NCBI RefSeq assembly: GCF_016862915.1
Contig: NZ_BONW01000004.1
Location: forward strand, 186,001-250,000
DNA: 64,000 nt
Direction of reading: 5' to 3'
From: Plantactinospora endophytica
GTDB lineage: Bacteria; Actinomycetota; Actinomycetes; Mycobacteriales; Micromonosporaceae
Position numbers and translations under genes: made by a program. How positions within the stretch are numbered: the stretch's first letter is position 1; the number at the start of each line of letters is the position of its first letter. The notes beneath the pieces were generated by a model. The model was given only the letters and a program-made list of their open reading frames with translations. It did no database searches and was not told where the DNA came from. Positions 3,991 through 53,470 of this stretch are shown one piece after another.

Positions 3991-5508
3991 ATGAGCACGA
4001 CCGTCCTGCCCTCGTACGACGACGTCGTCGAGCGCTACGCCCCGGTGATCGGCCTGGAGACCCACGTCGAACTGGGCACGAAGACCAAGATGTTCTGCGG
4101 CTGCCCGACCGACTTCGGCGGCGAGCCGAACACCCGGGTCTGCCCGGTCTGCCTCGGGCTGCCCGGCTCGCTGCCGGTGGCCAACAAGGCGGCGATCGAG
4201 GCGACCATCCGGATCGGCCTCGCGCTGAACTGCTCGATCGCGCCGTGGGGCCGGTTCGCCCGGAAGAACTACTTCTACCCGGACATGCCGAAGAACTTCC
4301 AGATCAGCCAGTACGACGAGCCGCTCTGCGTGGACGGCTGGCTCGACGTGGAGATCGTCGGCGAGGACGGCCAGCCCGAGCTGTTCCGGGTCGGCATCGA
4401 GCGGGTGCACCTGGAGGAGGACACCGGCAAGAGCCTGCACGTCGGCGGGGCCACCGGGCGGATCCACGGCGCGACCGAGTCGCTTGTCGACTACAACCGG
4501 GCCGGCATCCCGCTGGTCGAAATCGTCACCAAGCCGGTCGCCGGTACCGGCGCGCAGGCCCCGATCGTGGCTCGGGCGTACGTCACCGAACTGCGCGACG
4601 TGATCCGCTCGCTGGGCGTCTCCGACGTCCGGATGGAGGAGGGCTCGCTGCGCTGCGACGTCAACACGTCGCTGTCGCCGGCCGGCTCCGCCGAGTGGGG
4701 CACCCGGACCGAGACCAAGAACGTCAACTCGCTGCGCTCGGTCGAGCGGGCCGTCCGTTCGGAGATGCTGCGCCAGGCCGCCGTGCTCGACGGCGGTGGC
4801 CGGATCGTCCAGGAGACCCGGCACTTCCACGAGGACACCGGCGACACCACCTCGGGCCGGTCCAAGGAGACCGCCACCGACTACCGCTACTTCCCCGAGC
4901 CCGACCTGGTGCCGCTGGCCCCGGACACGGACTGGGTGGCCGAGCTTAAGGCGGCGCTGCCGGAGCTGCCCCGGGTGCACCGGCGGCGGTTGCAGCAGGA
5001 GTGGGGCCTGAACGACCACGACATGCAGTCGGTGCTCAACGCCGGTGCGGTCGAGCTGATCGAGCAGACCGTGGCCGCCGGCACCACTCCGGCCGGTGCC
5101 CGGAAGTGGTGGCTGGGCGAGCTGTCCCGGCGGGCCAACGAGGCCGGCGTCGAGCTGGCCGCCGTCGGTGCCACCCCGGCGCAGGTGGCCGAGCTGCAGA
5201 AGCTGGTGGACGCGGGCAAGCTCAACGACAAGCTGGCCCGTACGGTGCTGGAGGGTGTGGTGGCGGGCGAGGGCTCGCCGAGCGAGATCATGGCCGCTCG
5301 CGGCCTGGAGGTGGTCTCCGACACCGGCGCGCTGACCGCCGCCGTGGACGAGGCCATCGCCGCCAACCCGGACATCGCGGCCAAGGTCCGCGACGGCAAG
5401 GTGGCGGCGGCCGGCGCGCTGGTCGGCGCCGTCATGAAGAGCACCCGGGGCGCGGACGCGAAGACCGTCCGCTCGCTGATCCTGTCCCGGCTCGGCGTCG
5501 AGGGCTGA
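3991..5508 (+). CDS. gatB: Aspartyl/glutamyl-tRNA amidotransferase subunit B
   Basis: Subunit B of the GatCAB amidotransferase, which converts misacylated Glu-tRNA(Gln) or Asp-tRNA(Asn) to the amide form by phosphorylating the acyl group and using ammonia from GatA. 505 residues, full length. Diagnostic N-terminal motif [10 protein letters not shown] (residues 20-30), then zinc-site cysteines CGCPTDFGG and CPVCLG. It has a conserved GatB core and a C-terminal YqeY-like tail domain. GGAG lies 5 nt before ATG 3991, better placed than for TTG 3988. gatA and gatC are not in the visible upstream stretch. The last codons belong to a 24-bp tandem repeat. Confidence 0.97.
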
Positions 5509-5556
5509 TCCCGGCTCGGCGTCGAGGGCTGATCCCGGCTCGGCGTCGAGGGCTGA
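5485..5556 (+). repeat. Three tandem 24-bp copies of the gatB 3' end, each with the stop codon
   Basis: Three identical 24-bp units at 5485-5508, 5509-5532 and 5533-5556. Each encodes SRLGVEG plus TGA in the gatB frame. The first unit is the true gene end and the other two lie downstream. A stop readthrough would add identical heptapeptides. Confidence 0.95.
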
Positions 5557-5566
5557 CCGGTACGCA

Positions 5567-5609
5567 AAGGGCTCCGTCCCGTCGCGATCCGCGCGGGGCC
5601 GGAGCCCTT
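5567..5609. terminator. Terminator hairpin between gatB and the metallophosphoesterase
   Basis: AAGGGCTCCG (5567-5576) pairs perfectly with CGGAGCCCTT (5600-5609). The 23-nt loop holds a smaller CCCG/CGGG pairing. It serves two convergent genes. Confidence 0.75.
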
Positions 5610-5692
5610 CGGCGTACCCGGGGGTCGGAACCCGCCGGCTCATCTGCGGGGGCCGGGGCGCCGTCGGCGTACCCGAAATCGGTGCGGCGGCG

Positions 5693-7336
5693 TCAGCCGG
5701 TGGGGGTCGGGTCCGGTGGCGGGGCACCGGCCGGCGGGATCGGACTGGCCGGGGTCGGCGTGCCGGGGGTCGGGGTTGCCGGGGTCGGCGGTTCCGGCTT
5801 CTCGACCACGTGCCGTTCCAGGTTGACCTGCGCCTCGCCGGTGCCGCCGAGCAGGATGTCGTCGTACGCCTGTAGCGCCCGCTGCTGGTCGAAGTAGAGC
5901 ACCGACATCGCCAGCGGGGTCGGCTTGTCGCCCTCCAGGCCACGCAGCCCGGCCCCGCCGGTGGAGCCCTGCACCTGGAGCTGGGTCGGCATCGCGCCCG
6001 GCACCTGTGGCAGTTCACGCACCTCGCGGCTGTGCGTGTGCCCGGCCAGCACCAGCGGTGTGACGCCGGAGAGCGCCTCGGCCGACGCCGGGTCGTGCAC
6101 CAGGGCGATGTCGACCGGCTTGCCGGAGGCCCGGATCGTCGAGGCCAACTTCTCGCCGGCCCCGGTCACCTGGTCGACCGTCTGCGGCAGGGCGCCGGAC
6201 CCGGCCGGCGAGGTCTCCTTGTCCGGGGTGAAGCGGGGGTCGCCGATGCCGGCGATGGTCAGCCCGGCGACGTTGACGATCGAGTTGTCGAGTACGACGG
6301 CGTTCGGCTGCCGGTCGACGGCGGCGGCGGTGGCCGGCGAGTCGTGGTTGCCCCGGATGAAGACGTACGGCACCTTGAGCAGGCCGATCGAGCCGACGAA
6401 GGACGCCTCCGGCTCGCTGCCCCAGTCGGTCATGTCCCCGGTGTCGATCACTACGTCGATCTTGAACTGCTCGACCACGGTCCGGACCACCTGCCAGGCG
6501 GTCGGGTTCAGGTGCAGGTCGGAGACGTGCAGCACGCGTACGGTGCCCTGCTCCTGGTCGAAGACCGGCAGGGTGGAGACGGTGGTGTAGAGCTGGCTGA
6601 CGTTGCCGACCATCCGCTGGAGCTGGTCGGCGTACCGGCCGTAGTCGTTGGCGATCCGTCGGGCGTCGCCGACGATGGCCGGGGCGTTGACCAGGAGTCC
6701 CTCGTACCGGGGTTCCTCGATCGAGTCCGGCCGGAAGGTCAGCGCGGCGATGCCGAGGCTGCCGCCGGTGATCAGCAGGGCGAGCCCGCCGGACCAGGCC
6801 ACCCGACGGGTACGCCGGAACACCAGCGCCGCCAGGATCATGCTGGCCAGTACGGAGACCGCGACCGTGCGTACGCCGACCCGGATCACGCCGTTGGTCA
6901 CGTCGCTGACGGCGGACTGGCTGGCCCGGCTGATGCTGGCCGGGTCGTCGATCAGTGCCTCGGTGCGGCGCTGGTCGAGCGAGCCGAGCCGGACCGAGAG
7001 GTGTGCCGGGCCGGAGTGGCTGCTGAGCTGGAGCGCGCCGAGCGGCGGGATGGTGACGGTGGTGCCGCCGTCGACCGACGGTGTGATCGCCATCTCCGCC
7101 CGGAACGGCCCGATGTCGGTCTGCATCCGGCCGCCGAGCAGGACTCCGACGACGATCCCGACCACCGTGACGGCGATGATCGACAACGCCGTACCGGTCC
7201 GCCGGCTCGGCTTCGACGTCACCACGGCCCTGACGCCACGTACGGCGGAACGCGACCAGCGCAGCACACGCCGAGCCGCCGGGGGCGACGTGCCCCCGGC
7301 GGCTCCGGTGTCGTTCCTCCGCCTGTCCATGCTCAA
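5693..7336 (-). CDS. Membrane-anchored calcineurin-type metallophosphoesterase
   Basis: About 547 residues. Topology: a cytoplasmic basic N-terminus, TM1 at about 49-68, an external segment, TM2/TM3 at about 156-203, then an external catalytic domain. Metal-binding motifs are in order: SDLH (272-275), DTGDMTDWG (298-306), GNHD (329-332) and GHTH (432-435), with LVHD before the last. The tail is a Pro/Thr-rich low-complexity segment. The substrate is unknown; the family includes nucleotidases and phosphodiesterases. AGGTGAT lies 6 nt before TTG 7336, so I prefer that start; ATG 7330 is possible. Confidence 0.85.
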   Translation of the reverse strand: MSMDRRRNDTGAAGGTSPPAARRVLRWSRSAVRGVRAVVTSKPSRRTGTALSIIAVTVVGIVVGVLLGGRMQTDIGPFRAEMAITPSVDGGTTVTIPPLGALQLSSHSGPAHLSVRLGSLDQRRTEALIDDPASISRASQSAVSDVTNGVIRVGVRTVAVSVLASMILAALVFRRTRRVAWSGGLALLITGGSLGIAALTFRPDSIEEPRYEGLLVNAPAIVGDARRIANDYGRYADQLQRMVGNVSQLYTTVSTLPVFDQEQGTVRVLHVSDLHLNPTAWQVVRTVVEQFKIDVVIDTGDMTDWGSEPEASFVGSIGLLKVPYVFIRGNHDSPATAAAVDRQPNAVVLDNSIVNVAGLTIAGIGDPRFTPDKETSPAGSGALPQTVDQVTGAGEKLASTIRASGKPVDIALVHDPASAEALSGVTPLVLAGHTHSREVRELPQVPGAMPTQLQVQGSTGGAGLRGLEGDKPTPLAMSVLYFDQQRALQAYDDILLGGTGEAQVNLERHVVEKPEPPTPATPTPGTPTPASPIPPAGAPPPDPTPTG

Positions 7337-7456
7337 TCATCACCTGCCCAAAGCGACATCTTCAAAACCCGCCGCAGGTCGCACGCCATTTCCACCGCGG
7401 GTATGAGCTAGCTCTCCCCGCGTGGCGGGGCCGGACCCGCCCCCGGGTGTCGGGCG

Positions 7457-8689
7457 TCAGCTCTTGCCGGCCGCGCCGCCGGAGAAGACCAGCCGGAAGA
7501 TCCGATCGTCCTCGGGGGCCGGGTCGCGCTTGCCGTCGTGGTTGGAGGTGGAGATCCACAGCGAGCCGTCCGGCGCGGCGACCGCCGTCCGGAGCCGACC
7601 GTACTCGCCGACCAGCAGCGGGCGGGGCTGGCCAAGTACCGTACCGGCGGCGGTGAGTTCCACCAGCCAGAGCCGCTCGCCCCGCAGGCAGGCCGCCACG
7701 AGGACGCGTTCGATCATCGCGGCCCCGGAGCAGGACGCCTCGGCGGTACTCCAGGTGACCAGCGGATCGACGTACTTCTCGGCGTCGGCGCCGCCCCCGC
7801 TGGTGCCCTCGACCTCGGGCCAGCCGTAGTTCTTGCCCGGCGTGATCAGGTTGATCTCGTCCCACTGGTTCTGCCCGAACTCGGTGGCGTAGAGCCGCTT
7901 GTTGGCGTCCCAGGCGATGCCCTGCACGTTCCGGTGCCCGTACGACCAGACCAGCGAGTTCGGGAACGGGTTGCCCGGTGCCGGCTTGCCGGCGGCGGTC
8001 ATCCGGAGGATCTTGCCGCCGAGGCTCTTCAGGTCCTGGGACAGCCCACGCTCAGAGGCGTCACCGGTGGTGGCGTAGAGGTAGCCGTCCGGCCCGAAGC
8101 CGAGCCGGCCGCCGTTGTGGATGCCGGAGAGCGGGATGCCGGTGACGATCGGCGTCGGCTCCGCACCCAGGGTCAGCTTGGCGACCCGGTTGTCCTCGCT
8201 GGTGGAGTAGTAGACAAAGACGGTCTTGTCCCGCTGGTAGGCCGGCGAGACGGCGATGCCCAGCAGGCCGCCCTCGCCGGCCGCGTCGACCTCGTCGAGG
8301 GTCTGCACGGTGGTGACCCTGAGCCCGTTGGTGTCCGACTCCGGGCCGACCTTGAGGATCTTGGCGGTGTCCCGCTCGGTCACCAGCGCGCCGCCGTCGG
8401 GCAGGAAGGCGATCCCCCACGGGATCTGCAAACGACGGGCGAGCACGGTCGCCGCCACCTGCTGCCCGGCTCCACCCTGACTGGGTGAGACGGACGGGGT
8501 CGGGAACCTCGGCGGCTCGCCGGCCGGATCCGGTTCCGGCTCGCCGAAGGCGCAACCACTGGTGACGAGCACGGCCGCCGCACAGAGCGCGACCGCCGCG
8601 CGCCGACGGCTGAGTCTGGGGTACGGGCGAGCGCTCACCCGGACCAGGGTAGTCCGATCCCGTCGTACGCCGTCGGTCCGCTCGATCAT
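7457..8689 (-). CDS. PQQ-dependent sugar dehydrogenase-like lipoprotein (GSDH family)
   Basis: A secreted lipoprotein. A basic N-region is followed by a hydrophobic stretch and lipobox VTSGC, then a six-bladed beta-propeller of the glucose/sorbosone dehydrogenase family. Family motifs: PWGIAFLPDG, GEGGLLGIAVSP, HNGGRLGFGPDGYLY, GHRNVQGIAW and PGKNYGWPEV. Related proteins oxidise sugar aldoses with PQQ and calcium, but actinobacterial members are largely uncharacterised. The start is uncertain: ATG 8689 is given, with ATG 8713 and GTG 8638 in the same frame. GTG 8638 gives the most usual signal-peptide length. No neighbour explains its substrate. Confidence 0.85.
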   Translation of the reverse strand: MIERTDGVRRDRTTLVRVSARPYPRLSRRRAAVALCAAAVLVTSGCAFGEPEPDPAGEPPRFPTPSVSPSQGGAGQQVAATVLARRLQIPWGIAFLPDGGALVTERDTAKILKVGPESDTNGLRVTTVQTLDEVDAAGEGGLLGIAVSPAYQRDKTVFVYYSTSEDNRVAKLTLGAEPTPIVTGIPLSGIHNGGRLGFGPDGYLYATTGDASERGLSQDLKSLGGKILRMTAAGKPAPGNPFPNSLVWSYGHRNVQGIAWDANKRLYATEFGQNQWDEINLITPGKNYGWPEVEGTSGGGADAEKYVDPLVTWSTAEASCSGAAMIERVLVAACLRGERLWLVELTAAGTVLGQPRPLLVGEYGRLRTAVAAPDGSLWISTSNHDGKRDPAPEDDRIFRLVFSGGAAGKS

Positions 8690-9157
8690 CCACACCGATC
8701 TTTCCTCGGTCATCCCACCGGTCTTTCGGAGTCGTCGCTGGCCGGAGCGCCGGTCGGCGCGACCGTGGCCGCGTCCGGACGCCGCCCGGTCGGGTCGCCG
8801 CACCGGTCGACCCGTCAGCGGAGAGAGTCTCCGTGCCCCCCGGCCGGTTCCCGCCCCGGTCCGCGTTCGCGCCGGTCGGGCTGGCGCGCTTCCCGCACTG
8901 CGTAATTCCGCACGGGAGTGCCGCCTTTCGGCCGACGCGGAAATCGACGCAACCTTCCTTCCGTGCCCCATTGGTGCCCGGCCGGAACGCCGGTCATTGC
9001 GGGCGTACGGGATGTTGCGGTCAACGACGGAGATCGACATCCGGCCGCCGTACCCCGGTCGGCGGTGCGGGATCGCGCAGCGGGTGAAGGCGCTGTGAAA
9101 AAACACCTGAGCCGACTTGCCCGGCCCGGCTTGAATTGTTGCCGGAGAGGGGGCGCG
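8690..9157. other. Divergent intergenic region with no gene called
   Basis: It holds the leaders of the PQQ lipoprotein gene (leftward) and the LuxR-like regulator (rightward). The leftward frame stays open across it, but the residues are Arg/Ala/Gly-rich and do not look coding. No clear promoter consensus or large palindrome was found. Confidence 0.5.
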
Positions 9158-10231
9158 ATGATCCACAGTAGCGACGAACTGCTCGTCGGGCCGTCGGTCC
9201 CGTCGTTGGTCCGGCTGGGACGCTCACCCGACGCCGATCTGGTGTACCGGACGCTCCTCGTCCTGGGGCCCGTGGCGGCCGGCGACCTCGGCCGTGGGCT
9301 GGGGCTGTCCCGGCAGCGGGTCACCGACGCGCTCGCCGAACTCGCGGCGGTCGACGCGGTCTGCGCCGGTCCCGGAGACCGGCCCGGCTGCCAGGTCTGG
9401 ACGCCCCGACCACCCGGGCACGTCTTCCGGACGCTCCGCGCCGCCCAGTCCACCGGCGCGGTGCGGCGGATCGTCCCCGTTCCCGGCCCGGCGCCCGGCG
9501 ACCCGGCCGGACCGGGGCTGCCCCGGGTCTCGCCCGCCGACCCCGGCGTACGGCTGCTGCCCACCCGGCGGGCCACCCGGGCCCGGCTCGCCCAACTGGT
9601 CGGCCTGGCCCGGCACGAACACCTGTCGATGAGTCCGGAGCAGGTCTTCGAGCCGGAGTCGGCCCGTTCGGGAGTGCCGCTCGACCAGGGGTTGCTGGAC
9701 CGTGGCGTACGGATGCGGGTGCTCGGCGTGCAGCCGGCGGACCCGGATCCGCTGCGGTCGTACCGCCGGCAGCCGGCGGAGAGCCGGCCGGACTACCGCC
9801 GGCAGTCGTCCGTACCGATGAAGCTCATCGTGATCGACCGGCGGGTGGCGCTGTTTCCGCTGGTCCCCGGCGACTACAACCTCGGCTACCTCGAGGTGAC
9901 CGAGCCCTCGGTGGTGGCCACCTTCGTCGCCATGTTCGAGCAGCAGTGGAGGACCGTCCCCGAGCGATCGGAGCCAGCCATGCCACAGATCGACCTCAGC
10001 GCCCGGGAGCATCAGTTGATCACCCTGCTGGCACAGGGGCACACGGATGCCAGCGCCGCACGGCAGATGCGGATCAGTGCCCGCTCGGTCACCAACATCC
10101 TGCGCACCCTGATGGACCGGGTCGGTGCCGAGAACCGCTTCCAGTTGGGCCTCGCGCTGGGCGCCCTGCGGGCCGTACCGGTTCCGGGGCCGCCGGGCGG
10201 TGTGCACAGATCGGCCGGACCGGCCCGGTGA
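9158..10231 (+). CDS. Regulator with N-terminal TrmB-like winged helix and C-terminal LuxR HTH
   Basis: 357 residues. The N-terminal winged-helix region (about 20-65, GDLGRGLGLSRQRVTDALAE) resembles TrmB-like regulators. The middle (about 160-260) resembles the phospholipase D-like effector domain of that group. The C-terminus (about 290-345) is a LuxR HTH with LSAREHQLITLLAQGHTDAS and SARSVTNILRTLMDRVGAENR. GGAGAGG lies 7 nt before ATG 9158. Such regulators are abundant in actinomycetes with mostly unknown ligands. It is followed closely by a small exported peptide gene, so a regulator-peptide pairing is possible. Confidence 0.88.
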   Translation: MIHSSDELLVGPSVPSLVRLGRSPDADLVYRTLLVLGPVAAGDLGRGLGLSRQRVTDALAELAAVDAVCAGPGDRPGCQVWTPRPPGHVFRTLRAAQSTGAVRRIVPVPGPAPGDPAGPGLPRVSPADPGVRLLPTRRATRARLAQLVGLARHEHLSMSPEQVFEPESARSGVPLDQGLLDRGVRMRVLGVQPADPDPLRSYRRQPAESRPDYRRQSSVPMKLIVIDRRVALFPLVPGDYNLGYLEVTEPSVVATFVAMFEQQWRTVPERSEPAMPQIDLSAREHQLITLLAQGHTDASAARQMRISARSVTNILRTLMDRVGAENRFQLGLALGALRAVPVPGPPGGVHRSAGPAR

Positions 10232-10297
10232 GCCGAGGCGGCACCACCGGCCGGACGGGAGATGTCAGCACCACAGGCGGAAGGGAGCAAGCATCGG

Positions 10298-10546: not shown

Positions 10547-10690
10547 CCGTACGAATCCGAACTGGCCGGGTACGCAGCGGGGGGTACCCAGACCGGTCAT
10601 CTGCTTCGGTAACGCGCGAGTGGTGCTGATCAGAAGAAACGGGCATGTCGCCGGGCGGATCAGCGTTCCGACCGTGCGAGACTGCCCGGC

Positions 10691-18275: not shown

Positions 18276-18384
18276 GGTGGTCGTCCTCCTGGCTGGTCTC
18301 CGCCTCGCCGCCGATGCTATCGGTTACCGGGCGATCGGCCCCGGCCGGTGCCCCGGGCTCAGAGCTGGCACGGCGGTGCTGGCC

Positions 18385-18483
18385 CCGATTGGAGCTGGCG
18401 GGGACGGGCCCCGATCAAAGCTCACGGTGCTGGCCGATCAGAGCTGGCGGGGCTGGCGCCGATCAGGGCTGGCGGGGCGGTGC
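18385..18483. repeat. Degenerate about 25-bp tandem repeat spanning the LacI gene stop
   Basis: Four diverged units begin with CCGAT at 18385, 18411, 18434 and 18459, each followed by a form of AGCTGGCGGGG. The last copy contains the stop codon of the leftward LacI gene at 18463-18465 (TCA on the + strand). At least one other unit also repeats that GATCA. Confidence 0.75.
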
Positions 18484-19482
18484 GGTGCTGCCGCGCGGGA
18501 TGAGGTGGGCGGTCTCGTCCTGGAAGTCGCCGAGCGGCTGGCCGGCGATGGCGGCGAGCAGCCGGCCGGCGGCGTGTGCCCCGTACGCGGGGATGTCCCG
18601 GCTCAGCGCGGTCAGCGACGGGTGGACGAGTTGGCACAGCGGCGAGTCGTCCCAGGCGACGATCGAGACGTCGGACGGTACGGTCAGCCCCATCTCCTGG
18701 GCGACCGAGAGGCCGGCGATCGCCATCACGTCGTTGTCGTACACGATCGCGGTGGGCCGGTCGGCAGAGCTGAGCAGCCGCCGGGTGGCCCGGGCGCCCT
18801 CCTCGCCGCTGTAGTCGGAGGAGACGGTGGTCGTACGCTCCAGGCCCAGCCGGCGGCAGACGGCGCCGAACGCCTGCGTACGGATCTCGGTGTGCCGCAG
18901 GCCGGGCAGGCCGCCGACCCGGGCGATCCGCCGGTGCCCGAGCGCGACGAGGTATTCGAGCACCTCGGCCAGGGCCACCGACTCGTCGGACCAGACGTAG
19001 TCCGGCCCGCCGTCCTCGCCCGGCCCGCCGATCACGACCGCCGGCAGCCGCAACTCCGCCAGCACCGGCAGCCGGCGGTCGTCGATACGCAGGTCGCAGA
19101 CGAGTACGCCGTCCACCCGCCGCTCGCCCCACCAGCGCCGGTAGACCGCGATCTCGGCCTCGGGGCTGGCCACCACCTGGAGGGTCAGCGCGTACGACCG
19201 GGCGGAGAGTTCCGCCTCGACGCCGCTGATCAGCTCCATGAAGAACGGCTCGATGCCGAGGATCCGGGCGGGTCGGCAGAGCGCCAGCCCGACCGCGTTC
19301 GAGGTGGCGCCGGAGAGTGCCCGGGCCGCGCTGTTCGGGTTGAAACCGATCTCCTGGGCGATGGCGAGAATGCGTTGCCGGGTGGCGTCCGAGACCCCGG
19401 GTTGTCCGTTCAGCGCGTAGGAGACGGCGCCCTTGGAGACCCCGGCCCGCCGGGCCACATCCGCGATCGTCGGCCGCTTCAC
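18463..19482 (-). CDS. LacI-family repressor of the mannan locus
   Basis: 339 residues. The N-terminal LacI HTH reads RPTIADVARRAGVSKGAVSY, with hinge NPNSAARALSG. A periplasmic-binding-protein-like effector domain follows, with YDNDVMAIAGL and DDSPLCQLVHPSLT near the end. GTG 19482 has AAGGAG 6 nt upstream. It is divergent from beta-mannosidase and beta-mannanase genes, so the effector is probably mannose, mannobiose or a related sugar. The sharing of CCGGTT sites on both sides of the intergenic region supports autoregulation. Confidence 0.92.
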   Translation of the reverse strand: MKRPTIADVARRAGVSKGAVSYALNGQPGVSDATRQRILAIAQEIGFNPNSAARALSGATSNAVGLALCRPARILGIEPFFMELISGVEAELSARSYALTLQVVASPEAEIAVYRRWWGERRVDGVLVCDLRIDDRRLPVLAELRLPAVVIGGPGEDGGPDYVWSDESVALAEVLEYLVALGHRRIARVGGLPGLRHTEIRTQAFGAVCRRLGLERTTTVSSDYSGEEGARATRRLLSSADRPTAIVYDNDVMAIAGLSVAQEMGLTVPSDVSIVAWDDSPLCQLVHPSLTALSRDIPAYGAHAAGRLLAAIAGQPLGDFQDETAHLIPRGSTAPPRQP

Positions 19483-42266: not shown

Positions 42267-42269
42267 CCG

Positions 42270-43322: not shown

Positions 43323-44302
43323 GCTTCGACTACCCGCTGGTGCTGGCCGTCGCCGTACTGGTCACCGCCGCCGCGATCCTCGGCTACGTCGCGCTGCAAC
43401 GCCGTCGTACCGCCGCGCTGGCGGCTGCCGGCTTTGGGGTGCCGGCGGGCGGCAGTACGCGGCGGGCGGCACTGCGCCGACACCTGCCGTACGCGCTGCT
43501 GCTCGCCGCCCTGCCGATCCTGCTGCTGGGAGTGGCCCGCCCGCAGGCCGAGGTCGTCGTGCCGAGGGCCGCCGGCACGGTGATCCTTGCCTTCGACGTC
43601 TCCAACAGCATGTCCGCCGAGGACGTGGCACCGAGCCGGCTCGCCGCCGCGCAGGCCGCCGCGACCGGCTTCGTGGAGGAGCAGCCGGACTCGGTCGACG
43701 TCGGCGTACTCGTCTTCGGCGACCAGGCACTGCTGACCCAGGCTCCGACCGACGACCACGCCGCCGCCGTGTCCGCGATCGGGCGGCTCTCCTCGGGCGG
43801 CGGTACCGCGCTCGGGCAGGCGATCCTCGTCGCGCTCGGCACCATCACCGGCAAGCAGGTCAGCCTGCCGGCCGACGGCGGAATCGCGACCACGGAGGAT
43901 CTCGGCTACTGGCCGTCGGCGACGATCGTGGTCTTCTCCGACGGCCAGCAGACCGGTGGCCCCGACCCGTCGGCGGCGGCCGAACTCGCCGCTGCCGCCG
44001 GGGTACGCATCCAGACCGTCGGGGTCGGCACCGCCGAGGGCGCCACCGTCGAGGTCGACGGCTACCAGCTCGGTACGGCGCTGGACGAGGCGTTGTTGAG
44101 CACGGTCGCGCAGATGACCGGCGGCAGTCACCACCGGGCCGGCGACGCGGAAGCGCTGGCCGAGACGACCCGCTCGATCGACCTGCGCCTGACCAGCCGG
44201 AAGGAGCCCGTCGAGCTGACGGCGCCGTTCGCCGGTGTCGCCCTGCTGCTGCTGACCCTCGGTGGACTGCTCGGCATCCGCTGGCACGGAAGGATCGTCT
44301 GA
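43319..44302 (+). CDS. BatA-like VWA membrane protein 1
   Basis: 327 residues. TM at about 5-25 and 55-75, an external or cytosolic VWA domain with MIDAS DVSNSMSAED (about 96-105), VVFSDGQQTGG as second loop, and a C-terminal TM (FAGVALLLLTLGGLLGIRW). It is part of a MoxR-DUF58-BatA operon, which supports envelope stress tolerance in other bacteria. ATG overlaps the DUF58 stop. The last codons, stop and following sequence belong to an 80-bp duplication. Confidence 0.9.
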   Translation: MSFDYPLVLAVAVLVTAAAILGYVALQRRRTAALAAAGFGVPAGGSTRRAALRRHLPYALLLAALPILLLGVARPQAEVVVPRAAGTVILAFDVSNSMSAEDVAPSRLAAAQAAATGFVEEQPDSVDVGVLVFGDQALLTQAPTDDHAAAVSAIGRLSSGGGTALGQAILVALGTITGKQVSLPADGGIATTEDLGYWPSATIVVFSDGQQTGGPDPSAAAELAAAAGVRIQTVGVGTAEGATVEVDGYQLGTALDEALLSTVAQMTGGSHHRAGDAEALAETTRSIDLRLTSRKEPVELTAPFAGVALLLLTLGGLLGIRWHGRIV

Positions 44303-44429
44303 TGTCGTCCAGGTGGCCGTGGGCGCTGCTCGGGCTGCTGGCCGTAGCGCTCGGCATCCGCTGGCACGGGAGGATCGTCTGATGTCGCTCAGTTGGCCGT
44401 GGGCGCTGCTCGCACTGCTGGCCGTACCC
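44270..44429 (+). repeat. 80-bp tandem duplication across the junction of two VWA genes
   Basis: Copy 1 is 44270-44349 and copy 2 is 44350-44429, differing at a handful of positions. Each holds the 3' end of VWA gene 1 (LGIRWHGRIV, stop), the overlapping ATG and the first codons of VWA gene 2. It creates an extra ORF at 44302-44382. Confidence 0.93.
44302..44382 (+). CDS. 26-residue chimeric membrane microprotein created by duplication
   Basis: The ORF starts in the overlap TGATG at 44302 and ends in an identical TGATG at 44382, so it would be translationally coupled on both sides. The N-half (MSSRWPWALLGLLAV) copies the start of VWA protein 2, and the C-half (LGIRWHGRIV) copies the end of VWA protein 1. 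It is essentially one TM helix. It may be a neutral by-product, but it preserves coupling between the two VWA genes. Confidence 0.5.
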   Translation: MSSRWPWALLGLLAVALGIRWHGRIV

Positions 44430-45494: not shown

Positions 45495-45543
45495 CGAGCC
45501 CTGGTTCGCCGGCCGAGGTGAACACTCCTCATCGGACCGGACC

Positions 45544-45710: not shown

Positions 45711-48050
45711 ATGTTGCCGATGTCGATCGGCCTGGCCGACACATCCACCCGACTCCGCAGCTGGATTCGCGGAAACCTGCGGTACGACCTACCGGCCTCG
45801 CTCGTCGTCTTCCTGGTCGCCGTGCCGCTGTCGCTGGGCATCGCCGCCGCCTCCGACGCCCCGGTGGCGGCCGGGCTGATCGCGGCCGTGGTCGGCGGGG
45901 TGGTCGCCGGTCTGCTCGGCGGCTCCGCGCTCCAGGTCACCGGCCCGGCGGCCGGCCTGACGGTGGTCGTCGCGGAACTGGTCGGCCGGTTCGGCTGGGC
46001 GGCCACCTGCGCGATCACCGTTGCGGCCGGGCTGTTGCAGGTCGCGTTCGGGCTGTGCCGGGTCGCCCGGACCGCGCTGGCCCTCTCGCCTGCCATCGTG
46101 CACGGCATGCTCGCCGGGATCGGGGTCACGATCGTCCTCGGTCAACTGCACGTACTGCTCGGCGACGAACCCGGAAGCACGCCGATCCGGAACCTCCTCG
46201 ACCTGCCCGCCCAGTTGGCGAACCTGCACGACCACGCGGCGCTGATCGGGCTGACCGTGATCGGCCTGCTGGTCCTCTGGCCCCGGCTGCCGGGACCGGT
46301 ACGTCGGATACCCGGCCCGCTGGTCGCCGTCACCCTGGCCACCCTCGCCGCCGTGGTCTGGAACGACGTCGACCTGGCCCGGGTGGAGATGCCCGGGTCA
46401 CTGCTGGCCGCCGTACACCTGCCGGCGCTGCCCGACGGGGACTGGTCGGCCGTCGTCGCCGCCGTACTGACCGTTGCCGTGATCGCCAGCGTGGAGAGCC
46501 TGCTCTCGGCCACCGCGGTCGACCGGCTGGCCGCCGACCGGGCCGCCCCGGGCGACCGTCCGCCCAGGCCGACCAACCTGGATCGGGAGATGATCGGCCA
46601 GGGGGTGGCGAACAGCCTCTCCGGCCTGCTCGGCGGGTTGCCGGTCACCGGGGTCATCGTGCGCAGCTCCACGAACGTCAACGCGGGAGCCCGGACCCGG
46701 GGTTCGGCCGTCCTGCACGGGGTGTGGGTGCTGCTCTTCGCGGTGCTGCTCGTCGTACTCGTCGAGCGGATCCCGATGGCCGCGCTGGCCGGGCTGCTCG
46801 TCGTGGTGGGCCTGCAACTGGTGAAGATCTCCGACATCCAGCGGGTACGCCGGCACCGCGAACTGGCCGTCTACGTCGCCACCGCGCTCGGCGTGGTGGT
46901 CTTCAACCTGCTGGAGGGCGTACTCATCGGACTCGCCCTGGCGGTCGTACTGATCCTTCGCCGGGTGGTCTGGGCGAGGGTGCACGCCGAGCGGGTACGC
47001 GCCACCCCGGCGGGTCGCGAGCACTGGTCCGTGCACGTCGAGGGGACGCTGAGCTTCCTCGCCATCCCACGGCTCTCCGTCGTGCTCGGCCGGGTGCCGC
47101 CGGGCAGTGCGGTCGAACTGGAACTGGCCACCGACTACCTGGACCACGCGGCCTTCGACCACCTCGACGGCTGGGTACGCCAACACGAGACCACCGGCGG
47201 CAGCGTGCATCTGGACCAGGTCGGTCCCGCCGCCCTGCGTGGCGACCAGCCCCGGCCGCGCCGCCGGATCCACGCCCTGGTGCCGCCGCGCTGGTTCTCG
47301 CCCTGGTCGAGTTGGCAGGCCCGGCATCCGGACAACGGCGGCGAGCCGCACCTTTCCGAACAGGCGGACTCGCCGCAGGCCGCGCTCCGGCCGCTGCACG
47401 TCGGGGTACGCGAGTACCACCGCCGCTCGGCCGCCCGGCTGTTGCCGTTCCTGACCGAGCTGACCGGCCGGCATCGGCCGAACAGTCTCTTTCTGACCTG
47501 TGCGGACGCCCGGATCGTGCCGAACGTGATCACCAGCAGCGGGCCGGGTGACCTCTTCACGGTGCGCAACATCGGCAACCTCGTCCCCACCGACCACGTC
47601 GCGGAGTCCTCGGTCGCCGCCGCCGTCTCGTACGCCGTCGACGTGCTCTCCGTGCCGCTGCTGCTGGTCTGCGGGCACTCCGGCTGCGGCGCCATGCAGG
47701 GGCTGCTGGGCGGACGCGCCGAGGAGGAGAGTCACGTCGGGCGGTGGCTGCGTTGGGGACGGCCGAGCCTGGCGGCCTGGCGGGCCGGGCATCCGGTCGG
47801 TTCGGCCGCCGTCGCCGACGGGCGCGCCGAGGTGGACCAGTTGGCGATGGTGAACGTCGCCCGCCAGGTCGCGGTGCTCCGGGAGTTCCTCGCCGCCCGT
47901 GGTGTCGAACCGGGGAAGGTGTCGGTGCACGGGCTCTTCTTCGACATCCCGACCGGCCTGCTGCTGGTCCTCGACGAGCAGCGGCAGCGGTTCACCTGGC
48001 CGCCGCACCACGAGCTGGAAACCAGCGGCGCCGGCTTCGTCCGCCCGTAG
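45711..48050 (+). CDS. SulP-type bicarbonate/anion transporter fused to beta-carbonic anhydrase
   Basis: 779 residues in three parts. The SulP transporter (about 20-430) begins with LPASLVVFLVAVPLSLGIAA. A STAS-like domain follows (about 440-510, WSVHVEGTLSFLAIPR). The C-terminal beta-carbonic anhydrase (about 555-770) has zinc ligands and the Asp-Arg dyad in LTCADARIVP and CGHSGCGAM. Such fusions are thought to couple bicarbonate uptake to CO2 interconversion on the inner face. GGAGGAGG lies 6 nt before ATG 45711. The substrate could also be sulfate, but the fused anhydrase favours bicarbonate. Confidence 0.92.
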   Translation: MLPMSIGLADTSTRLRSWIRGNLRYDLPASLVVFLVAVPLSLGIAAASDAPVAAGLIAAVVGGVVAGLLGGSALQVTGPAAGLTVVVAELVGRFGWAATCAITVAAGLLQVAFGLCRVARTALALSPAIVHGMLAGIGVTIVLGQLHVLLGDEPGSTPIRNLLDLPAQLANLHDHAALIGLTVIGLLVLWPRLPGPVRRIPGPLVAVTLATLAAVVWNDVDLARVEMPGSLLAAVHLPALPDGDWSAVVAAVLTVAVIASVESLLSATAVDRLAADRAAPGDRPPRPTNLDREMIGQGVANSLSGLLGGLPVTGVIVRSSTNVNAGARTRGSAVLHGVWVLLFAVLLVVLVERIPMAALAGLLVVVGLQLVKISDIQRVRRHRELAVYVATALGVVVFNLLEGVLIGLALAVVLILRRVVWARVHAERVRATPAGREHWSVHVEGTLSFLAIPRLSVVLGRVPPGSAVELELATDYLDHAAFDHLDGWVRQHETTGGSVHLDQVGPAALRGDQPRPRRRIHALVPPRWFSPWSSWQARHPDNGGEPHLSEQADSPQAALRPLHVGVREYHRRSAARLLPFLTELTGRHRPNSLFLTCADARIVPNVITSSGPGDLFTVRNIGNLVPTDHVAESSVAAAVSYAVDVLSVPLLLVCGHSGCGAMQGLLGGRAEEESHVGRWLRWGRPSLAAWRAGHPVGSAAVADGRAEVDQLAMVNVARQVAVLREFLAARGVEPGKVSVHGLFFDIPTGLLLVLDEQRQRFTWPPHHELETSGAGFVRP

Positions 48051-48356
48051 CCGGCGGAGTCGGGTGGGTTCCGGTCCCGGTCGGGCACGGCGCGGGTGGC
48101 GGCCACCGTCGCTTGTGGAATACACGACGACCCGGGGGTTGTCGCCGATATCGGCGCCCGGCACCTTCGTCGTACGCCGGGTGCTGCCGCCGACGTGTCC
48201 GTCGTACGGGTGGGGCAATGTAGTCCGGTGAGGGTGTCGGGGCAAGTGAACCCGGCATGAACTGACACCGAACTATGTGGAGTGTGCCGGATAGTGGCGC
48301 AGACAACTCCCAGCAAGCATTCAGGTTCGTGCCCACGCGGCGTACGTTCACGATTC
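48051..48356. other. Intergenic region between the two carbonic anhydrase genes
   Basis: It contains a hairpin-like CCCGGC ... GCCGGG (about 48160-48182) and, at its end, TTCAGG (48320-48325), 17 nt, TACGTT (48343-48348), a leaderless promoter for the next gene. No gene is called. Confidence 0.5.
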
Positions 48357-49073
48357 GTGAAGAACTTTCCTCGACAGTCGACCCTCTCCCGACGCTCGCT
48401 CCTCGCCGCCGGTGGCCTGACCGCCGTCGGTACCGTCGCGCTGGCCGGCCCGGCCACCGCCCAGTCGGCCGGCGACCCGCCGGTCGACAACCCGCAGGCG
48501 GCGCTGGCCCGGCTGCTGGACGGCAACCGGCGCTTCGTGCAGGGTCAAGGTCGACACCCGCACCAGTCCCCCCGACGCATCCACGACCTGGCGGCCGGGC
48601 AGGACCCGTTCGCGATCGTCGTCGGCTGCGCCGACTCCCGGGTACCCCCGGAGGTTCTCTTCGACCAGGGTCTCGGTGACCTTTTCGACAACCGGGTCGC
48701 CGGCAACATCGTTGACACAATCATGCTGGGCAGCATCGAGTACGCCGTCGAGCACTTCGCCTCGCCGCTGCTGGTGGTCCTCGGCCACGAGCGGTGCGGT
48801 GCCGTCTCCGCCGCCGTCGACACGATCGCGAGCGGTGGTACCGCCCCGGGCTCGATCCAGGCCATCGTCGAGGCGCTGCGGCCGGTCGTCGAGCCGCTGC
48901 TCGGCGGCACGGGCGACATCGTGGAGGCGGCGGTCCGGGCCAACGTGCTGGCCCAGGCGCAGCACCTGGTCGAGGCCAGCGAGATCATCGCCGAGCAGGT
49001 GCACGCCGGTCACCTGGAGATCGTCGGCGCCCGCTACGACCTGGACAACGGCCGGGTCACCCTGGTGAGCTGA
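48357..49073 (+). CDS. Tat-exported beta-carbonic anhydrase
   Basis: 238 residues. The twin-arginine signal LSRRSLLAAGG is followed by a hydrophobic stretch and GPATAQSA cleavage region (about residue 36). The beta-class domain has VVGCADSRVPPE (Cys, Asp, Arg) and LGHERCGAV (His, Cys). It interconverts CO2 and bicarbonate outside the membrane, feeding the SulP-CA transporter just upstream. TACGTT sits 8 nt before GTG 48357 with no Shine-Dalgarno, so it is leaderless. The gene's last codons and stop are part of a tandem repeat. Confidence 0.93.
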   Translation: MKNFPRQSTLSRRSLLAAGGLTAVGTVALAGPATAQSAGDPPVDNPQAALARLLDGNRRFVQGQGRHPHQSPRRIHDLAAGQDPFAIVVGCADSRVPPEVLFDQGLGDLFDNRVAGNIVDTIMLGSIEYAVEHFASPLLVVLGHERCGAVSAAVDTIASGGTAPGSIQAIVEALRPVVEPLLGGTGDIVEAAVRANVLAQAQHLVEASEIIAEQVHAGHLEIVGARYDLDNGRVTLVS

Positions 49074-49146
49074 CGTTTCGGTTCCCGGCCGGTGAGCTGA
49101 CGTTGTCTTCCCGGCCGGTGAGCTGACGTTGTGTTCCCGGCCGGCT
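49065..49146 (+). repeat. Three 26/27-bp tandem copies of the carbonic anhydrase 3' end with stop
   Basis: GGTGAGCTGACGTT recurs at 49065, 49092 and 49118, with CCCGGCC spacers. Each copy contains the TGA of the gene. Confidence 0.9.
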
Positions 49147-49172
49147 CGCCGCTCGCCGTCGAGCCGGCCGGC
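49138..49172 (+). terminator. Terminator hairpin 1 after the carbonic anhydrase gene
   Basis: CCGGCCGGCTCG (49138-49149) pairs perfectly with CGAGCCGGCCGG (49161-49172), with an 11-nt loop. Confidence 0.75.
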
Positions 49173-49181
49173 ACCGGCTGG

Positions 49182-49231
49182 GGGCTGTCTTTCGGATCCT
49201 CTCGCTTCACCGAGATCCAGGAGACAGCCCC
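49182..49231. terminator. Terminator hairpin 2, shared by convergent genes
   Basis: GGGGCTGTCT (49182-49191) and AGACAGCCCC (49222-49231), perfect 10 bp, loop 30 nt. It serves the leftward gene that ends at 49252. Confidence 0.65.
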
Positions 49232-49251
49232 TGATCCGTCCCGCCCGCGCG

Positions 49252-52206
49252 TCAGTGCTGGGGGCCGTTGGCCCGGGACCAGAGTCCCGCCCAGCCGCCC
49301 CCGGCCAGCCACGACGACGGCAGCAGCAGCCCGTGCCCCGCGATCCGGTCCCAGAACCCGTCCGGTACGGCACCCAACTCGACGGCGTCGGGCCAACTCG
49401 ACTGCCAGCTCTCGTCCCGGAGCGAGGACTGTGGAAAGCCCGGCACCCGTACCCGGCGTCGCGGCACCACGACGGTGACGCGCTCGGCTGACGGCCGGAG
49501 TACGGCGGACCCGGGAGCGGACTGTCCGGTGGCGAGGCCACTCCAGGAGGTCACCCCGAGCGCGGCGGCCCGGAGCAGCCCGGCGTGCGGCCGGGACCGC
49601 ACCGCGTTGGCCAGTTCGGGGCAGTCCTGCCGGAGCAGGGTGCCCAGGGCGGCGCGCAGGCGCAGCGCGACCAGGTCGGCGGTGCGGGCGACCGCGACGT
49701 ACCCGACCCGGGCCAGCGGCCGGAGCGAGCCGGGCAGTGGCGCGTCCAGCAGCAGCGGGGCCAGCCGGTCCGATGTGGACGACGACGGGACCCCGGCGGT
49801 GGACGGCGCCAGGGCGTGTACCGCCCGGGCCAGCGGTCGGTGCCCGCTCGCCCGCCACAGCCCGACCAGACCGGGGCCGGCCGGGTCGGCCAGGGTGAGC
49901 CGGCAGGCCCGGGCGACCGCTCCGGGCGTGGCCCGGCGCAGCGCGGTCAGCGCGTCGTGCGGATCGGCCGGCGGTGTCGTCGGTGCGCCGGCCAGTCGGG
50001 TCGCCAGCACGGCCAGCACCTCGGCCGCCGGAACGGTTTCCGGCTGGGCGAGCGTACCGGCCGCCACCTCGTCGAGCCGGCGGCCGAGGTCACGCAGCAC
50101 CCGTACGGCGGAGGCGGGCCGCCGGCCGGTCCGGGGCGTCGTCGCCCCGGTCCCGTCGTGCGGGGCGGCGCGGCGAGGCTGCGGGATGGCCCGCTCGGGA
50201 AGGGCGAGGGCGGCCATCCAGGCGCTGGTCCGGTGCAGCAGTGTCGGATCGGGGTCCTCGTTGAACCGGGCGCGGATCTCTTCGAGTCGCCAACCCCGCG
50301 CGCCGGGCCGGAGTTCGGCGTTGACCAGGATGCGGCCGTCCGGTGCGCGGAGCGCGACCAGCACGCTCCGGCCTCGGGCGGCGTCCTCGACGTAGTGCGG
50401 GCTGGCGATGCAGTTGCCCATGTAGCCGGACCAGTCCGCCAACTGCCGGGCCGTCCGGGCCAGCTCGATCCGCGCGTCGGTGCCCGGCAGCACCGTGCCG
50501 TCGAACCGCTCGACCGGAGGCGGGACGGTGAAGGCGCCGGTCAGCGCGGTGGCGATGGTGGCGTGGTCGGTCAGCCCGGCGACGAGTTCCGGCCAGGTCC
50601 GACAGCGGGGCGGGACCTGTCCGCCGAGGTCCACCAGCTGCGCGGCACCGGCGACGGCGAGCGGGATCGACTGCGGTCGGGGTACCAGTGGTTCGTCCGG
50701 CGGCGGCGGGTCGGTGGCGACGGTCGGAGCGTTCCGACCCGGGGTGACCACGGCCGTCGGATGACCGTTCAACCGGGCCAGCGCGTCGGCGAGTTCGGCG
50801 TACCAGAGCAGGTCGCCGATGGTCTCGACCTCGGCCGTCGTGCGGTCCGGTGCGGCGCGCAGCCGCGCGGCCAGCGGCGGTACCGGCTCCGCCGGAAGGA
50901 TCGGCTGCTGGTCCCAGGATGCGGGGCGGTCCGGCGACAGATAGCCGACCCGGTTCCGCCAGACCCCGAGTGAGCAGCCGGCCCAGCCGACGAGGTGTGC
51001 GCGCAGTGCGACCGAGTCCGGCTGGACGATCGCGTTGGCCAGGTGCTCCGCGACGTTCAGGACGACCCGACCGTAGTCGCCGGCTCGGGCCAGCCGTTGG
51101 CCGAGGTAGGGCGCCCACCGGCGGTCGAGCGGTTCGTCGGGCGCGGTCCGGGCGAGGATGTCCCGCAGGTACGACCCGGGTCGGGCCGGCAGGCCGGTCA
51201 GCCCGGATATCCGCCGCGCCGACATCGACACCTCGGACGGGGACAGTTCGGCGACCGCCGCCTCGATCTCGTGCCGGTGTGCGGCCAGGGCGGCGTCCAG
51301 GCCACGGTCGACCGCGCTCACCGCGACCCGGGCCAGCACCGTCGCCGCCATCGCGTCCCGGAGCACCCGGTTCGCCCGGGTCAGCCAGTACCCGGCCGAC
51401 GGCTGCCACAGCGCGGCCCGGTGCATCGTCGGCTCGCCCCACAGCTCGGTACGCAGCCGCTCGGTGAGTTCGTCCTCCTCGTACCGCCGGTAGCGGGCGG
51501 CGAGGTCGGCGGTGCGGTCCTGCCGGCCCTGCGACGCGCGCAGCCGCTCCCGCCGCAGCCGCCGCGTGCCGTGTGCGCAGACCTGCTGCCACAGGTCGGT
51601 CAGCAGGGCGAGGCGGCGCGGCCGGGGCACCTGCCGGAGTACCCGGGTCAGGTGCCCGCCGACCACCGAGGGCAGCCCGCCCGGGAACGGGTCGACGCCG
51701 TCGGGCGCTCGCAGGTCCAGCACCGTGACGAGCTGCTCCGGCCCGAGTACGTCGCTCGCCGCGACCGCGAACCGCAGCACCGGCCACCGGCGTTCGTCGA
51801 GTACGGCCTGGGCGGCGGCGCCGAGCGGCTTCGTCGCGTCCGGGCCGAACAGCGCGACGAGTACCGCCCGCCGGTCGCCGAGCCGTCCACTCAGCGCCGG
51901 CACCATCAGGGCGGCGAGTACGGCGTCGCGGCGGTCTCCGGCGGCACCCTCGGTCCGGGCCGACCGGAACCCGTCGCCGAGGTCGACGCCGGCACCGGCG
52001 GCCGGTACACCGCCGGCCGCGATCAGCCGGTGCAGTTCCGCCACGGCCCGGTCGACGGACTCCGGGGCGGCCGAGCGGGGTCCCAGCACGACCGGGCTGC
52101 CCGGGGCGAGTTCCGGGGACGGCTCGACGGACCGGCCGCGCGGTCCGGCGGTCCAGATCCGCGAGTCCGGCCCCGGCACCACCCCGCCCGACAGCCGCAA
52201 CGTCAC
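49252..52206 (-). CDS. Large uncharacterised protein with PcfJ-like motif
   Basis: 984 residues from GTG 52206, without signal peptide or TM. No known catalytic domain is evident. Residues about 640-720 resemble the PcfJ-like family: LADWSGYMGNCIASPHYVED, GRILVNAELRP and IRARFNEDPD, where the NC and the final N are the conserved features. PcfJ proteins are linked to conjugative plasmids but their function is unknown. Long helical Ala/Arg/Leu-rich flanks surround it. The open frame continues 165 nt upstream but that part is unlike protein; AGGA lies about 11 nt before GTG 52206. Divergent from nudC. Confidence 0.7.
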   Translation of the reverse strand: MTLRLSGGVVPGPDSRIWTAGPRGRSVEPSPELAPGSPVVLGPRSAAPESVDRAVAELHRLIAAGGVPAAGAGVDLGDGFRSARTEGAAGDRRDAVLAALMVPALSGRLGDRRAVLVALFGPDATKPLGAAAQAVLDERRWPVLRFAVAASDVLGPEQLVTVLDLRAPDGVDPFPGGLPSVVGGHLTRVLRQVPRPRRLALLTDLWQQVCAHGTRRLRRERLRASQGRQDRTADLAARYRRYEEDELTERLRTELWGEPTMHRAALWQPSAGYWLTRANRVLRDAMAATVLARVAVSAVDRGLDAALAAHRHEIEAAVAELSPSEVSMSARRISGLTGLPARPGSYLRDILARTAPDEPLDRRWAPYLGQRLARAGDYGRVVLNVAEHLANAIVQPDSVALRAHLVGWAGCSLGVWRNRVGYLSPDRPASWDQQPILPAEPVPPLAARLRAAPDRTTAEVETIGDLLWYAELADALARLNGHPTAVVTPGRNAPTVATDPPPPDEPLVPRPQSIPLAVAGAAQLVDLGGQVPPRCRTWPELVAGLTDHATIATALTGAFTVPPPVERFDGTVLPGTDARIELARTARQLADWSGYMGNCIASPHYVEDAARGRSVLVALRAPDGRILVNAELRPGARGWRLEEIRARFNEDPDPTLLHRTSAWMAALALPERAIPQPRRAAPHDGTGATTPRTGRRPASAVRVLRDLGRRLDEVAAGTLAQPETVPAAEVLAVLATRLAGAPTTPPADPHDALTALRRATPGAVARACRLTLADPAGPGLVGLWRASGHRPLARAVHALAPSTAGVPSSSTSDRLAPLLLDAPLPGSLRPLARVGYVAVARTADLVALRLRAALGTLLRQDCPELANAVRSRPHAGLLRAAALGVTSWSGLATGQSAPGSAVLRPSAERVTVVVPRRRVRVPGFPQSSLRDESWQSSWPDAVELGAVPDGFWDRIAGHGLLLPSSWLAGGGWAGLWSRANGPQH

Positions 52207-52453
52207 GAATTCAGGATCCTCGCACTGTCCAGCCGATTTGCCGGGCCGGAGTGCGCAGGCGTCGACATCAGCCAGCGGGCGTCCACGCCCTGCCGCCTGC
52301 CGGATGAGCACGCCCTGCCGCCTGCCGGACGAGATCTGCCCGGGTCCACGGGACAGGAAGCACCCGGGCATACCATGCGGTGATGCCGCTGATTACCTCC
52401 AACGCCTCGCAGGTCAGGTTGGCGCTACCCACCGATCGACCCGGTGGCGTCGG

Positions 52454-53374
52454 ATGCTGAGCGGCGGCGTCGTCACCGCGTACGCGGGCGGAGCCCTCGA
52501 CCGCGCGGGTGGGCTGCGGCGCGACTCCGACGGGGTGCGCCGGCTGTTCGAGAGTGACCGAGCCGAGGTCGTGCCGCTGTGGCGGGACCGGTGTCTGGTG
52601 ACGGGCGAGTCGGTGCTGCGGTTGGCCGGCGACGGTCAACACCGGTTGCCGGCCGGGATCGGCGAGCCGGTCCTCCTCGGCCTCGACGGTGACCGCCCGG
52701 TGTTCGCCGTGGACCTGACCGACCTGTCCGAGGACGAGGCGCTCGGCGTGGTCGGCGCCGACCGGACGGTGGACGTACGCCGGCTGGTGCACGGGCTCGA
52801 CCCGGCCGAGGCAGCCGTGCTCGGGTACGCCCGAGGGCTCTGCCACTGGCACCGTAACCAGCGTTTCTGCGGCACCTGCGGCAGCCCGGCACGATCGGTG
52901 CAGGGCGGTGCGGCCCGGCAGTGCACCGGCTGCGACCAGCTTCTCTTCCCACGGATCAGCCCAGCGGTGATCATGTTGGTGGAACTGCCGGGCCCGCCGG
53001 CACGCTGCCTGCTGGCCCGGCACGCCGGAGCGGGGCCGGACTCGTTCGGGCTGCTGGCCGGCTTCCTGGAGGTCGGCGAGAGCCTGGAGGACGCGGTACG
53101 GCGCGAGGTGGCCGAGGAGGCCGGCCTGGTGGTCGACTCGGTACGCTACTTCGCCTCGCAGCCGTGGCCGTTTCCGTCCGGCCTGATGGTGGGCTTCTTC
53201 GCCACCGCCCACTCCGAGGTGACCACCGTCGACGGCGAGGAACTGCTGGAGACCCGCTGGTTCAGCCGGGCGGAGTTGCGGGACCGGCGGGCGGCACGCG
53301 GCCGGCTCGGCAATCCGGACTCGATCGACCGGCTGCTGCTGGAAACCTGGCTCGACGCCCCGGACCGCTCGTAG
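52454..53374 (+). CDS. nudC: NAD+ diphosphatase / NADH pyrophosphatase (NudC-type Nudix hydrolase)
   Basis: 306 residues. A zinc ribbon CGTCGSPARS...CTGC (about 137-160), Nudix box GFLEVGESLEDAVRREVAEE (GX5EX7REUXEEXGU intact), then the NudC signature SQPWPFPSGLM. It splits NAD(H) to NMN(H) and AMP and in some bacteria removes NAD caps from RNA. It is the only ATG in frame after the last upstream stop region, with GGTGG upstream. Divergent from the PcfJ-like gene. Its stop codon lies inside a tandem repeat. Confidence 0.93.
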   Translation: MLSGGVVTAYAGGALDRAGGLRRDSDGVRRLFESDRAEVVPLWRDRCLVTGESVLRLAGDGQHRLPAGIGEPVLLGLDGDRPVFAVDLTDLSEDEALGVVGADRTVDVRRLVHGLDPAEAAVLGYARGLCHWHRNQRFCGTCGSPARSVQGGAARQCTGCDQLLFPRISPAVIMLVELPGPPARCLLARHAGAGPDSFGLLAGFLEVGESLEDAVRREVAEEAGLVVDSVRYFASQPWPFPSGLMVGFFATAHSEVTTVDGEELLETRWFSRAELRDRRAARGRLGNPDSIDRLLLETWLDAPDRS

Positions 53375-53470
53375 CTCCGGACGGCTCGTAGCTTCGGACC
53401 GCCCGTGCTCCGGACGGCTCGTAGCTCCGGACCGCGCGTGCTTCGGACCGCCGTGCTTCGGACCGCGCGG
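53361..53470 (+). repeat. About seven degenerate 15-17-bp tandem units across the nudC stop
   Basis: Units begin with CGGAC at 53361, 53378, 53395, 53411, 53428, 53444 and 53459. Unit 1 contains the nudC TAG (CTCGTAGCTC), and units 2 and 4 repeat it. Confidence 0.9.

Follow-up and report, generated by a model that had tools for sequence, protein, structure and literature searches.

Why should tandem repeats lie across the stop codons of several genes in one short stretch of a bacterial chromosome? The question is raised by a 64,000-nucleotide stretch of Plantactinospora endophytica (family Micromonosporaceae; contig NZ_BONW01000004.1, positions 186,001 to 250,000), here called the window, in which arrays cover the stops of gatB, a LacI-family gene, the first gene of a VWA1/VWA2 pair, an exported-type carbonic anhydrase gene, and nudC. 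The pattern is real, genome-wide, and lineage-variable. In 1.65 Mb of the P. endophytica genome, arrays with a Tandem Repeats Finder (TRF) score of at least 80 cover 67 of 1349 stops versus 6 of 1349 starts, corresponding to 63 distinct stop arrays and 6 start arrays, with 2 in both groups (binomial P = 4e-14). The stop-covering arrays are probably slippage duplications, short-lived and tolerated downstream of genes.

All five of the repeats that a sequence-only reading of the window had placed over stop codons are present and do cover the stops (Table 1). The gene names are backed by Pfam (GatB, LacI, VWA/BatA in two genes, Pro_CA, and NUDIX), and at every locus the gene's own 3' end serves as the first unit. 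The gatB TGA lies at 5506 to 5508 within the first copy, which is the 3' end of gatB, and the minus-strand stop of the LacI-family gene is at 18463, under its array. Relatives of the gatB, LacI, carbonic anhydrase, and nudC proteins terminate at the same place or within about 10 residues of it; for VWA1, the relatives' stretches compared contained no relative reaching 55% identity. At VWA1/VWA2, the 80-bp duplication doubles the TGATG stop/start junction and yields a small predicted frame coupled to both neighbors.

Table 1. Tandem arrays and an associated predicted frame in the window, with positions counted from its first base
Feature	Positions	Strand	Unit and copies	Identity	Context
gatB array	5485..5556	+	24 bp x 3.0	100%	TRF; over the gatB stop
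LacI-family gene array	18372..18478	-	25 bp x 4.3	76%	gene at 18463-19482, minus strand
VWA1/VWA2 array	44269..44426	+	80 bp x 2.0	92%	VWA1 stop and VWA2 start both covered
Predicted hydrophobic open frame, 26 codons	44302..44382	+			product of the 80-bp duplication; 1-base overlap with the VWA1 stop and with the VWA2 start
Carbonic anhydrase (exported-type) array	49064..49144	+	26 bp x 3.1	92%	over the stop
nudC array	53360..53466	+	15-17 bp; 6.6 copies at 17 bp		over the stop; TRF fits 17, 33, or 50 bp
Degenerate array	5595..5675	.	26 bp		shares the convergent gap with the gatB array
Array past PF01161 gene	57323-57381				about 80 bp past the gene
Degenerate array of GCCGGGCT-type units	58331..58456	.			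convergent gap after MDMPI_N (DinB-fold) gene
Array past TetR-family gene	60146..60200	.	24 bp x 2.3		31 bp past the stop

The check proposed along with the five loci, a genome-wide comparison of stops with starts and random sites, bore out the 3' bias. In four randomized sequences, two shuffled locally and two generated by an order-3 Markov model, 0, 0, 1, and 1 stops were covered. In 850 kb at the same score, arrays covered 30 stops and 4 starts among 683 of each, and a retrained gene caller gave 69 covered stops versus 6 covered starts among 1348 genes. All of these counts apply to the 1.65 Mb that was read out of 9.68 Mb in 90 contigs. Gene calls came from a custom script, and the best row was kept where TRF rows overlapped. 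On an annotated Streptomyces plasmid, the caller recovered 24 of 39 annotated stops with 0 unannotated, and 8 of the 24 starts were exact; retraining brought no gain there (20 of 39 stops), and 1335 of 1349 stops in the P. endophytica genome were common to the two versions. Judging by the offsets, called genes were frequently too short. Among arrays not spanning a stop, 34 of 54 periods were divisible by three, which is too many and indicates that missed genes were probably left in the gaps.

A repeat that covers a stop codon could mean that the stop itself is a hot spot, but the positions of the arrays do not bear this out. Array coverage rises from 0.040 over the last 20 coding bases to 0.077 over the 20 bases that follow the stop and 0.139 at 60 to 79 bp, with its peak 60 to 100 bp past the stop. 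The sequence-only reading had named as its refutation a frequency at stops no higher than at other intergenic positions, and by that measure coverage at the stop is indeed the lower. Coverage that rises past the stop fits a permissive zone starting there, because an array can cover the stop only if its first unit lies in the gene. Insertion rates per 10 kb were 1.5 to 3.7 in the last 20 coding bases versus 12 to 39 in the first 20 after the stop, and 2.2 to 4.4 deep in divergent gaps, where both starts are more than 150 bp away.

Within array-bearing gaps, placement is near uniform. For each such gap, the unit was placed uniformly over the positions that spare both genes, with co-directional gaps restricted to positions 100 bp or more ahead of the next start; the test omitted 10 of 73 convergent and 65 of 140 co-directional arrays, for which the gap was not longer than the unit or the next start was less than 100 bp away. 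In co-directional gaps, 13 stop-covering arrays were observed versus 13.4 ± 3.1 expected at score 60 and 9 versus 11.6 ± 2.8 at score 80, and in convergent gaps 33 versus 24.5 ± 3.4 and 26 versus 17.8 ± 2.9, respectively. With six relatives added, the convergent values were 41 versus 34.8 ± 4.0 (score 60) and 32 versus 24.5 ± 3.3 (score 80), and the co-directional values were 18 versus 16.4 ± 3.4 and 11 versus 12.8 ± 2.9. The excess at the stop over uniform placement is thus at most about 1.3- to 1.4-fold and occurs in convergent gaps only. This test replaced an analysis by absolute distance bins, in which a stop hot spot was strong at first, because such bins lose the mid-gap events of convergent gaps.

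As DNA is synthesized, slippage or a template switch from one short direct repeat to another would give rise to tandem duplications of 10 to 100 bp, and further slippage would then lengthen or remove the arrays. A copy inserted past the stop would leave the protein, the promoter, and the ribosome site intact, so that arrays would be most frequent 3' of genes. Where the duplicated segment reaches into the gene, the first copy would retain the true stop while the extra copies would carry spare ones, and the stop within an array would therefore be the left edge of the permissive zone and not a target. GC-rich, microhomology-rich 3' DNA would further favor duplication. The slippage event itself is presumed, as is the neutrality of the copies.

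Microhomology at the borders of clean duplications is what replication slippage predicts, and it is common. In a pooled set of 64 exact two-copy non-coding duplications, 23 of them clean, at least 3 bp were common to the borders in 17 of the 23 and in 75% of all 64, compared with 8% of 5000 blunt duplications simulated in array-free non-coding DNA. With four clean cases set aside in which the overlap was at least half a unit, 13 of 19 keep at least 3 bp of microhomology. The DNA near stops is also less constrained in general, as indicated by indels of at least 10 bp other than tandem ones, which are 2.0 to 2.3 times commoner there than deep in gaps, and by substitutions, which are 1.4 times as frequent. 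Outside arrays, the DNA near stops has a higher GC content than the comparison DNA (0.737 versus 0.672) and more 7-mer direct repeats (0.67 versus 0.28 per 60 bp) and therefore offers more substrate for slippage. As an estimate made with no fitted model, these factors roughly multiply to the observed enrichment.

Comparison with relatives indicates that the arrays turn over rapidly; for part of the relatives, the comparison used plus-strand matches only. The gatB triplication is unique to the P. endophytica genome, with a single copy at the stop in six Plantactinospora relatives (G001, G002, G003, G004, G005, and G006), and G006 has a different array 10 bp beyond the gatB stop. At the LacI stop, G003 carries another array, of 14-bp units, and none is listed in G001, G004, or G005. 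The carbonic anhydrase stop has no array in G001, G003, or G005. Over the nudC stop, P. endophytica, G003, and G005 carry differing units; the G001 array begins 16 bp after the stop, and G004 has none. No second strain of P. endophytica was among the relatives listed.

The convergent gap at 53374 to 53548, between nudC and an M14 peptidase gene, holds unrelated arrays in four of the five Plantactinospora genomes read. This is suggestive of recurrent hot gaps, yet no significant co-occurrence of arrays between species was found over all shared gaps, and the idea was rejected. In 72 comparisons of convergent gaps, arrays were present in both species in 7, in a single species in 20 and 11, and in neither in 34 (odds ratio 1.08, P = 1); the corresponding counts were 8, 31, 23, and 166 in 228 co-directional comparisons (odds ratio 1.86, P = 0.20) and 2, 7, 8, and 66 in 83 divergent comparisons (odds ratio 2.36, P = 0.30). 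Where both species had arrays in a gap, the units differed in 14 of 17 cases. The remaining 3 pairs were above the 95% level of random pairs; two of them are at nudC, where the similarity stems from the gene end or a common GC-rich motif, and one is an operator-like repeat. The lack of co-occurrence and the differing units indicate that arrays arise and vanish quickly.

The frequency of covered stops varies between lineages. It was 9 of 99 in Plantactinospora mayteni (G003), 1 of 117 in G004, 1 of 97 in G001, 2 of 99 in G005, 2 of 89 in G007, 3 of 78 in G016, and 0 of 68 in G036, and over these seven relatives 1 of 647 starts was covered. G036 (L111-L114), which belongs to another family of the same order, had no intergenic array in 15 kb, despite a GC content and coding density like those of P. 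mayteni (L075-L081). In other actinomycetes, arrays covered 12 stops and 2 starts out of 840 each around gatB; 58 of 80 such loci were analyzed, 20 being not chosen (mostly metagenome-assembled) and 2 having runs of N. Non-coding arrays were present at the gatB loci of Micromonosporaceae, Streptosporangiales, Nocardioides, and Streptomyces; there were few or none in the small samples of Glycomycetaceae, Kitasatospora, and others.

Several observations weigh against slippage and tolerance as the full account. The gatB array consists of exactly three copies with no flanking partial copy and hence no microhomology, and the surplus of 7-mer repeats by the stops may consist of worn-down old arrays, which would make that term circular. 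In co-directional gaps, the arrays whose period is not a multiple of three are closer to the stop than they would be under uniform placement (Kolmogorov-Smirnov P = 0.0018 and 0.0015). The remaining observations are those that a mutational process tied to transcript ends would also explain. In such a process, which the sequence-only reading had put forward, RNA polymerase pausing, R-loops, head-on or convergent transcription, or supercoiling would raise the rate of tandem duplication at transcript ends. The insertion rate falls with distance, from 16 to 27 per 10 kb within 20 bp of the stop to 3 to 5 beyond 150 bp (score 80), even away from starts, in a count that loses mid-gap events in convergent gaps. 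When TRF was rerun on the simulated placements, the convergent expectations were 24.7 (z = 2.1) and 18.5 (z = 2.3), leaving a mild excess at the stop. Insertions per base pair in the first 20 bp after the stop were higher in convergent gaps than in co-directional ones (33/8457 versus 15/7701, P = 0.029; 26/8486 versus 9/7727, P = 0.010). Among 774 indels of at least 10 bp between orthologous gaps, tandem ones were enriched relative to others less than 150 bp from stops, with odds ratios of 2.3, 3.0, 5.6, and 6.1 at four identity cutoffs (P = 0.0002, 0.001, 0.0003, and 0.018).

These signals shrink under closer control. Counts by record reuse one P. endophytica gap against several relatives, which is why the excess of tandem indels weakens when it is counted per distinct gap (odds ratios 1.6, 1.8, 3.4, and 3.9; P = 0.15, 0.14, 0.025, and 0.14), where it is significant at one of the four cutoffs. 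The effect of convergent transcription, visible in unmatched gaps, is not significant in any class of at least 40 bp once gap length is matched; the difference survives matching in gaps shorter than 40 bp, where the next start interferes. Composition and microhomology shift in the same direction as the proposed process, and the ends used were those of genes, not mapped transcript ends. What stands of the proposal is the distance gradient, the mild convergent stop excess, and the weak surplus of tandem relative to other indels 3' of genes; the contrast between convergent and co-directional gaps is not significant in matched gaps of at least 40 bp. A transcript-end process as the explanation of the arrays is rather unlikely; the small surplus that remains 3' of genes, when tandem duplications are set against other large indels, possibly reflects one but does not require it. 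A bolder form of the idea is that gene 3' ends in Plantactinospora and other high-GC actinomycetes are mutational factories, with transcript ends, chiefly between convergent genes, provoking duplication beyond what tolerance and composition would account for, so that several percent of stops are continually recopied with species-specific units and small coupled frames such as that at VWA1/VWA2 occasionally appear. This form is unlikely as well.

Alternatively, the arrays might be copies of a MIRU-, REP-, or BIME-like repeat, mobile or palindromic, that is scattered over the genome and settles where genes end. PMC12548453 describes MIRUs as mobile repeats with an internal frame that comes to be coupled to a gene, and the small predicted frame at VWA1/VWA2, coupled at both ends, is similar in this respect; the gatB stretch also has three short partial matches of 26 to 54 bp elsewhere in the genome. 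However, MIRUs as portrayed there are one mobile family inserting at start codons, whereas the units here are copied locally from the end of each gene and lie at stops. Gene-specific first units at five of five loci, units that differ between species, and a whole gatB stretch that occurs once in the genome (a search made genome-wide for that stretch, with the other units neither so searched nor compared all against all) make a repeat family very unlikely. A role as backup stop codons, with the extra copies kept by selection, has in its favor that every array does contain further stops and that, of the 67 periods of stop-covering arrays, 29 (43%) are multiples of three (two-sided P = 0.09, one-sided P = 0.057). 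When only arrays with the stop in their first unit are counted, however, multiples of three make up 18 of 46 periods at score 80 (P = 0.44) and 21 of 59 at score 60 (P = 0.78), so the additional stops show no significant preference for the reading frame, and the arrays are not retained across species. Selection for stop redundancy, which the sequence-only reading had raised, was accordingly rejected on reading-frame phase and is highly improbable; a survey of eubacteria (PMC6764699) likewise reports having found no sign that additional stops are selected for. Tandem repeats can cause misassembly, and the assembly that contains the window is in 90 contigs. Arrays at gene ends are nonetheless also found in single-contig relatives (G001, G005, G007, and G016), the copies are mostly imperfect, and the arrays are shorter than usual reads; assembly error is very unlikely.

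The window contains 22 arrays at a score of at least 60, with 5 over a stop (one of them also over a start), 9 within genes, and 8 intergenic. The array expected after a DinB-fold gene, for which Pfam reports MDMPI_N and a weak match to DinB_2, does follow that gene, but it begins 57 bp past the stop and leaves it uncovered. A similar repeat had been described after a Calx-beta-like gene, and no Calx-beta gene was found among the 20 window proteins scanned by Pfam, which are a subset of the genes. A CTTGACA-N6-GTCAAG-type palindrome occurs twice at 60229 to 60273, directly before a start called at 60286, and similar palindrome pairs are present in G001, G004, and G005. This pair looks like a conserved operator pair; the stop arrays, by contrast, are unconserved.

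Related systems are known. PMC2884548 describes small variable segments in bacteria that arise via slippage between short repeats. The arrays resemble the bacterial minisatellites, or variable-number tandem repeats, described there in having head-to-tail units of about 10 to 100 bp, direct repeats at their borders, rapid turnover between relatives, and an often intergenic location; they differ in that the 3' bias is quantified here and that arrays take in about 5% of stop codons. The tandem repeats of archaeal Borgs, as presented in PMC9879509, are similarly fast evolving and of independent origin, with flanking partial copies, and about half are intergenic or start in a gene end; in intergenic Borg repeats, most periods are not multiples of three. 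Borg units are, according to the same paper, perfect, A-enriched, and extrachromosomal, whereas the arrays described here are chromosomal, and most of those in the window are imperfect and GC-rich. No prior report of stop-covering tandem arrays in actinomycetes was found in the literature searched, which mostly excludes subscription papers.

These results provide a measured picture of the rate of 3' intergenic turnover in high-GC actinomycetes. They also counsel caution, since repeats that cover stop codons seem purposeful and yet are mostly as expected of a permissive zone beside a gene. If the residual 3' excess is mutational, transcription-linked duplication would be testable in bacteria at natural loci.

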